In this document: piece by piece, positions 14,615 through 15,751 of the stretch
How the letters are laid out: each line of letters begins with the position of its first letter
How positions within the stretch are numbered: position 1 is the stretch's first letter
Assembly (NCBI GenBank): GCA_012270555.1
Contig: JAAXIC010000047.1
Span: 1 to 51,069 of the forward strand
DNA from: Chloroflexota bacterium
Lineage (GTDB): Bacteria > Chloroflexota > UBA11872 > VXOZ01
Length of the DNA: 51,069 bases
Reading direction: 5' to 3'
Program-made: the position numbers and the translations under genes
The notes under the pieces: model-generated
What the model was told of the DNA's origin: nothing
Seen by the model: only the letters and a program-made list of their open reading frames with translations
The model's database searches: none

Positions 14615-14783
14615 TTGGCATCCAGCGATGGCATGCCGCTGGAAGGGTGTTATGCAGAATTCACCGCGAGACGCGGTCAGTGGTGTCTTCAAACAAGCCG
14701 AGCGGTTGTAGGCCCAATTGTGACTAGAGCAAGAGAAAATCAGTAGGCACTTAGGATAATTCAGAGGAGAGAGGAAAGAGACA

Positions 14784-15245
14784 ATGGCTGAGAGTGCGCA
14801 GACGTTACCACGCATCTTCAAATGGTTTGGGGAAGGTCAATTCGCCGCCTCCGGCTTTCCAGAGACCGAAGAGGAATTGTGCGCAGTGGCGGCGCAAGGC
14901 ATCAAGCACATTGTCGCGGCCACGCGGCAGAATCCGGATACGGAAACGATAGAGCGGCTTGGCATGACGGTCGAGGCCTTCAACGGCGCCAGCAGCGACT
15001 TGACAACCCTCGACGCCGCGGTGGAGTCGCTGCACGCGGCTGCTCTGCGGGACGACAAAGCCCTTATTCACTGAGGCTCCGGTTTCGGCGGGGCCGGTAC
15101 GGTCCTGGCAGGGTACTTGGTGAAGTATGAAGGCTATGCGCCGGCAGACGCGGTGCAGGCGCTGCGCGACTTCCGACCGGGAGACTTGAAAGGCGGCAAT
15201 GTGGACAATTTCATCGCCGACTACGCGGAGAGTCTGAATTCATAG
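14784..15245 (+). CDS. dual-specificity phosphatase-like protein with in-frame UGA at the catalytic cysteine position
   Basis: The ATG at 14784 follows a strong GGAGAGAGGAAAG site. Ninety-six codons lead to a TGA at 15072-15074, and the same frame then stays open for 56 more codons to TAG at 15243. Across the TGA the protein reads ALIH-(TGA)-GSGFGGAGTVLAGYL, which lines up with the phosphatase signature HCxxxxxR followed by (A/T)GT. The TGA therefore takes exactly the place of the catalytic cysteine (position 97). The arginine six residues later is Gly103 (GGG), and the expected general-acid aspartate region reads FNGASSD. The downstream part (ALRDFRPGDLKGG) also matches the usual end of this family. 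Options are a decaying pseudogene, a truncated 96-residue protein, or recoding of UGA as selenocysteine. Loss of the arginine argues against an ordinary phosphatase in every case. Confidence 0.6.
15072..15074 (+). other. in-frame TGA codon replacing the phosphatase catalytic Cys codon
   Basis: TGA differs by one base from both cysteine codons. Other genes in the window use TGA as a normal stop (for example at 4025-4027 and 41438-41440), so general reassignment of UGA is excluded. Only context-dependent recoding or mutation could explain it. Confidence 0.7.
15096..15117 (+). other. possible SECIS-like hairpin downstream of the UGA
   Basis: GGTAC (15096-15100) pairs with GTACT (15113-15117), then after the bulge GGT the bases CCT (15104-15106) pair with AGG (15110-15112), leaving the apical loop GGC. 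The loop begins 33 bases after the UGA and has G in its first positions. As I recall, bacterial SECIS elements have a short G-containing loop about 16-37 bases after the UGA. A second hairpin, GGCTCCG (15075-15081) with CGGGGCC (15089-15095), starts immediately after the UGA. Coding constraint could produce either by chance. Confidence 0.25.
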
Positions 15246-15277: not shown

Positions 15278-15308
15278 GAAGCCCGCTACTGCATGTGTAG
15301 CGGGCTTC
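15278..15308 (+). terminator. intrinsic terminator-like hairpin after the phosphatase-like gene
   Basis: A perfect 12-base stem, GAAGCCCGCTAC with GTAGCGGGCTTC, has a 7-base loop and is followed a few bases later by GGTTTT. It begins 32 bases after the second stop (15245), not after the TGA, consistent with the ancestral gene ending at 15245. Confidence 0.6.
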
Positions 15309-15365: not shown

Positions 15366-15620
15366 CTATCTCGGAATGAACTCCAACGCTGCCAATACAC
15401 CCGCTAATGCTACGAACAACAATACAAGTTGAATCGTGACCTGGTGAAATCGCTTCTCGATCCGCAATTCAAGCGCTTGCAGTTCAGTTCTGAGATCCGC
15501 TTTCGTAACGAGTTCGCCGCGCTCTGCGCCGACTATATCAACGAGCGCCTCAGCCTGCGTCTCGTCAAAGCCCGCCCCTGTTAGAATCTTTATTGCCTTA
15601 TGGGTGTCAAGCACTGCCAT
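15366..15620 (-). CDS. small coiled-coil membrane protein (DUF1640/CCDC90-like)
   Basis: An 84-residue protein. Its N terminus (DTHKAIKILTGAGFDETQAE) and the following VTKADLRTELQALELRIEK segment resemble the bacterial DUF1640 coiled-coil family. A single C-terminal hydrophobic helix (about 62-80, LVLLFVALAGVLAALEF) should anchor it in the membrane. The start is ATG 15620 after AGAGGA; a TTG directly before it is less likely. Such small proteins are common, often near restriction or transport genes, and have no established function. Here the neighbours are glyS and the phosphatase-like gene, which give no clue. Confidence 0.7.
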   Translation of the reverse strand: MAVLDTHKAIKILTGAGFDETQAEALVDIVGAERGELVTKADLRTELQALELRIEKRFHQVTIQLVLLFVALAGVLAALEFIPR

Positions 15621-15751
15621 CAAGTGTCCTCTTTAGTCGCTGCGCTTGTGCCGCACGTGCCTTAAGTATATCACGCGCGTTGGATCTCCAAGTTGGATGT
15701 GTAGCAAGCCTCATTGCGTGTTAACAACCAGGTTAGGAAGCTAGCCGCACC

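Follow-up and report, generated by a model that had tools for sequence, protein, structure and literature searches.

The gene at positions 14784-15245 of the window (by which we mean the whole stretch of DNA analysed, 51,069 nucleotides long) is, with a probability that we put at about 0.88, a genuine selenoprotein gene, in which the UGA codon at 15072 is recoded to selenocysteine (Sec) within a DUSP23-like protein that has the dual-specificity phosphatase (DSP) fold and is most probably not a phosphatase. Judging from the sequence, the conserved UGA is almost certainly read as Sec, and the protein most likely has no phosphatase function, because every member has Gly in place of the catalytic Arg and lacks the general-acid segment; it is probably a redox enzyme or another kind of selenolate enzyme. 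The Sec-DSP family, which occurs in uncultured Chloroflexota bacteria, appears to be an unrecorded selenoprotein family in a fold for which none was known before. We infer the insertion of Sec itself from features that were computed, namely the recoding signature, the decoding machinery of the genome, a SECIS-like element, the coding selection and the protein fold. The elements of the locus are the following:

14764..14779, + strand: Shine-Dalgarno-like purine tract GAGGAGAGAGGAAAGA, upstream of the ATG at 14784
14784..15245, + strand: Sec-DSP gene, 153 residues with the UGA read as Sec; stop codon TAG at 15243-15245
15072..15074, + strand: UGA at the catalytic Cys position of the DSP (residue 97), almost certainly read as selenocysteine; kept in 8/8 orthologues
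15089..15107, + strand: hairpin resembling a bacterial SECIS element, with a stem of 8 bp (CGGGGCCG/CGGUCCUG) and an apical loop, GUA, at a distance of 22 nt from the UGA
15090..15092, + strand: codon 103, GGG (Gly), at the catalytic Arg position of HCX5R; the Sec proteins all have Gly here (8/8), the Cys homologues Arg
15278..15308, + strand: intrinsic terminator hairpin, perfect 12-bp, 3' of the second stop

The reading frame starts with the ATG at 14784, meets the in-frame TGA at 15072-15074 and continues for 56 further codons up to the TAG at 15243-15245. Comparable purine-rich tracts are present 5' of the ATG in the orthologues of the genus, and the alignment of the genus likewise has the terminator hairpin 3' of the gene; the preliminary description had reported both a strong ribosome binding site and a terminator past the second stop. 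In the genus the gene lies between ileS and the convergent glyS, an order that is kept wherever the contigs allow, while in the second family that contains the gene (f5, see below) it is located near a Gfo/Idh/MocA oxidoreductase. The comparison of neighbourhoods revealed no operon partner common to the genus and f5. An 85-residue protein, weakly similar to CCDC90 (below the cut-off), is encoded on the opposite strand between the Sec-DSP gene and glyS (15366-15623, -) and recurs in two or more congeneric genomes.

If the UGA is read through, the P-loop motif becomes ALIH-U-GSGFGGAGT, and the matches to two Pfam families span both sides of the TGA (PTP-SAK, PF22784, with 56.1 bits at a cut-off of 27, and DSPc, PF00782, with 37.6 bits at a cut-off of 33.5). 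The preliminary description had placed the TGA precisely where a phosphatase-like gene has its catalytic Cys, had recognized family-like sequence in the 56 codons past it, and had noted changes of both the catalytic Arg (GGG at 15090) and the general acid; all these observations are borne out. In place of the HCX5R signature, the 8 Sec proteins have H-Sec-X5-Gly, in which the His, the Sec and the Gly are all invariant. In the Sec clade, the segment with the general acid (xDFTAP in the Cys homologues) is shorter and, as read from the alignment, has no conserved Asp at this place. The P-loop backbone, HxGxGxGGxGT, is intact, and four basic residues (R10, K13, R128 and R131) are invariant in 8/8. 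No second Cys is conserved among the 8 Sec proteins (C32 is missing in L008, L011 and f5), hence there is no built-in resolving thiol.

A read-through search over 201 genomes identified orthologues in 5/5 congeneric genomes (84-90% identity) and in 2 genomes of f5 (46-47%). Each of them contains exactly one internal stop, which is a TGA at the same codon. With the window included, TGA is thus found in 8/8, together with Gly at the Arg position, and orthologues with Cys and Arg were not seen. A sequencing or assembly error that turned TGC or TGT into TGA would involve a single differing base; however, the TGA recurs in two genomes of another family and, within the genus, in six separate ones, and we reject this explanation as vanishingly improbable. 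The Sec form occurs in 8 of the 41 genomes of the class, including 6/6 in the genus and 2/2 in f5. No additional Sec members were found in a 400-genome sample of the phylum Chloroflexota, and when GTDB r220 (84,980 species genomes) was scanned with a pattern, 6 loci only were returned, all from Chloroflexota MAGs already in the ortholog set. So far, the Sec-DSP family is restricted to one Chloroflexota class.

Comparison of the six congeneric genomes reveals a dN/dS of 0.089 upstream of the TGA and of 0.098 in codons 112-152, past the hairpin. In these downstream codons the variable columns are distributed 7/7/32 over codon positions 1/2/3, and the downstream frame contains no indels, frameshifts or stops in any of the six genomes. 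Together, these data argue for translation past the TGA under ordinary protein-level selection, and they bear on two other readings that the preliminary description had listed. According to the first, the gene is a pseudogene or has entered early decay by a nonsense mutation at the Cys codon. The frame is indeed interrupted by a TGA and the catalytic Arg is gone too, but the recurrence of this TGA across two families (8 genomes), the low dN/dS (about 0.1) past it, the lack of indels and frameshifts and the ileS-gene-glyS synteny conserved in the genus contradict this scenario, and we reject it as extremely improbable. According to the second, termination at the UGA is programmed and yields a functional 96-residue protein, with the downstream part important only as RNA. 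A Sec-UGA normally causes some termination, and RNA-level constraint acts on the hairpin; however, the part downstream of the hairpin evolves as protein, with the codon-position bias and dN/dS given above and without indels or frameshifts, and the predicted fold takes in C-terminal helices. The deliberate short product is therefore rejected as well, being highly improbable.

Synonymous change is strongly suppressed just past the TGA: dS among the six genomes is 1.09 upstream, 0.13 in codons 98-111 and 0.90 thereafter, and codons 101-109 exhibit no synonymous differences at all. As a control, 12-codon windows with comparably low synonymous change are found 9 times among 1040 in ileS and 0 times among 433 in glyS. 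The drop coincides with the bSECIS-like hairpin GGGGCCG-GUA-CGGUCCU; SECIS prediction had been suggested in the preliminary description. Published criteria for bSECIS elements (PMC13188914) ask for a loop of 3-9 nt whose first two positions include a G, with G or U mostly coming next, a spacing of 16-37 nt and a minimum free energy (MFE) of at most -7.5 kcal/mol. All 8 sequences fit this model: the loop is GUA, the spacing is 22 nt and the MFE ranges from -11.1 to -11.9 kcal/mol (-11.1 kcal/mol for the window, with the 3-nt loop starting with G and then U); the stem comprises 8 bp in the genus and 7 bp in f5, in which one G-U pair is replaced by G-C. The bSECIS model is permissive, as 8% of the TGA triplets in the window pass it, and the weight of the SECIS case therefore falls on conservation and position. 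Folding the 57-nt region as a single sequence gives a z-score of -1.2, which is not extreme and carries little information by itself. We also considered whether the hairpin stem dictates the Gly at codon 103 and rejected this idea: AGG (Arg) folds at least as well (-15.8 vs -15.1 kcal/mol), hence the loss of the Arg is not accounted for by constraint on the RNA alone.

The assembly that contains the window encodes a complete machinery for the use of Sec, with all components above their cut-offs: SelA (467 bits with Pfam and 572 bits with TIGR00474), SelB (378 bits, cut-off 242), SelD (382 bits, cut-off 125) and a tRNA-Sec with the anticodon TCA, which is also called by ARAGORN. The SelD gene (L057:1531-1533, contig C48 of G000) itself carries a TGA in frame, located at its catalytic position (ACAG-U-AGKLGP); the hairpin 3' of this TGA has the apex GGU, the same apical motif as in the hairpin of the Sec-DSP gene. 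UGA recoding is therefore already required in this genome, and SelD is its second Sec gene and a positive control. SelA matches are present in 41/41 genomes of the class (39 above the cut-off); the use of Sec appears to be class-wide, and further unannotated Sec genes in the class are likely. A second SelB-like match, partial and located at a contig end (L046, G000:C18:3-710), scores 162 bits, less than the cut-off, and could represent part of a different translation GTPase. The machinery, the TGA in the orthologues and the hairpin lend strong support to the selenocysteine-containing pseudo-phosphatase that the preliminary description had put forward among its possibilities. On this basis we propose that SelB and tRNA-Sec would recode the UGA at 15072, directed by the hairpin at 15089-15107, and that the product would be a 153-residue single-domain DUSP23-like protein with Sec in place of the nucleophilic Cys of the P-loop.

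The AlphaFold2 model, built from seven Sec sequences, is a single DSP domain (pLDDT 82, pTM 0.81) that includes the C-terminal helices encoded past the TGA. The best matches in the PDB are human DUSP23/VHZ (2img, with a TM-score of 0.83 and rmsd of 2.1, and 4erc) and ShufPTP (9e9m), in agreement with the sequence search. ShufPTP, a putative ancestral protein, was crystallised as a cyclic sulfenamide. With DUSP23/VHZ and with the bacterial PTP-SAK/DSPc proteins, the Sec protein shares the P-loop layout Hx-x-x-G-x-G-x-x-G-T and a length of about 150 residues, but it differs from them by the replacement of Cys by Sec and of the catalytic Arg by Gly, as well as by the missing general-acid segment; it also differs from the bacterial Cys homologues by a one-residue insertion past the P-loop helix. 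About 40 homologous loci with approximately 30% identity have Cys at the Sec position, and every one of them whose motif could be read keeps HCxxGxxR, including the Arg. The Sec clade is monophyletic (support 100/99) with a long stem. No Cys form was found inside the Arg-less clade, and the exchange between Cys and Sec is visible only against the distant homologues. The read-through search found no other match, i.e. no Cys form, in the window's genome. On the other hand, the f5 genomes (G016 and G020) also carry an ordinary DUSP23-like paralogue (L083 and L084) with the motif HCAAGRGRTGT, which is about 32-33% identical to the Sec form across the whole domain and yet retains the Cys, the Arg and a DFAAP-like general-acid segment and belongs to a separate clade.

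One study placed DSPs in the set of proteins with a non-redox catalytic Cys and stated that the known functions of Sec are limited to redox chemistry (PMC2673044), so a Sec-containing DSP is unexpected. Concerning the function, we give about even odds to the possibility, suggested by analogy, that the P-loop of this DSP/PTP-fold protein supports Arg-free selenolate redox chemistry, which would replace the hydrolysis of phosphate esters. The P-loop and the helix dipole would hold the selenolate, a strong nucleophile at the N-terminus of the P-loop helix, which would react with a small substrate of peroxide-like character, oxidised or electrophilic. Formation of a selenenyl amide with the backbone might protect the resulting selenenic form, or else an external thiol might resolve it, which is proposed here because no resolving Cys is conserved. 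In PTP1B a sulfenyl amide arises between the P-loop Cys and the backbone amide that follows it, and for the Sec of GPx a selenenyl amide has been proposed (PMC8746199). The most economical proposal would be a redox cycle with a single Sec, in which an external thiol serves as the reductant; by the same analogy, its odds are about even.

Two other functions should be considered. The Sec enzyme could still act on oxyanions, as a phosphatase or an arsenate-type reductase, with R10, K13, R128 or R131 replacing the Arg; the intact P-loop backbone, the invariance of these four residues in all 8 proteins and the existence of reductases with the PTP fold (PMC2673044) are in line with this idea. However, every Cys homologue with a readable motif has the Arg, the xDFTAP segment has also been shortened and has lost its Asp in the Sec clade, R131 aligns with the Arg of the family-wide RPGS motif and R10 is also present in the f5 Cys paralogue, so that neither of the latter two is an obvious replacement. 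We regard this possibility as rather unlikely. Alternatively, the role could be non-catalytic, with the Sec binding a metal, a metalloid or a selenium species, or the protein could be a redox-regulated pseudophosphatase sensor. A fold that is kept while the catalytic Arg and the general acid are lost is the usual anatomy of pseudophosphatases, and the lack of a conserved partner operon agrees with such a role; on the other hand, retention of the costly Sec in 8/8 argues for a chemical use of selenium, as does the restriction of known Sec functions to redox, and we consider a binding or sensory role unlikely.

A catalogue published in 2026 comprises 119 prokaryotic selenoprotein families and subfamilies (PMC13188914), and its Table 1 contains no entry with the DSP/PTP fold. 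NCBIfam (June 2026) gave only a weak match below the cut-off, and we found no natural Sec phosphatase in the open-licence literature. Catalogued selenoproteins such as the rhodanese-like UxxS/UxxG forms and the arsenate reductase forms resemble the Sec-DSP in having Sec as the active-site nucleophile and in decoding by SelB and a bSECIS element, predicted in the case of the Sec-DSP, but the Sec-DSP is set apart by its DSP/PTP fold and by the lack of a UxxC partner. Standard ORF calling stops such genes at the UGA, leaving here an ORF of 96 residues, and more of them may therefore be hidden. If our interpretation is true, this is the first selenoprotein in the DSP fold, otherwise counted among those with a non-redox catalytic Cys, and a natural Sec at the position of the DSP nucleophile would widen the range of folds that use selenium. 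The consistent pairing of Sec with the loss of the Arg would then constitute a ready-made evolutionary experiment, in which a phosphatase pocket has been equipped with a selenolate and deprived of its grip on phosphate.
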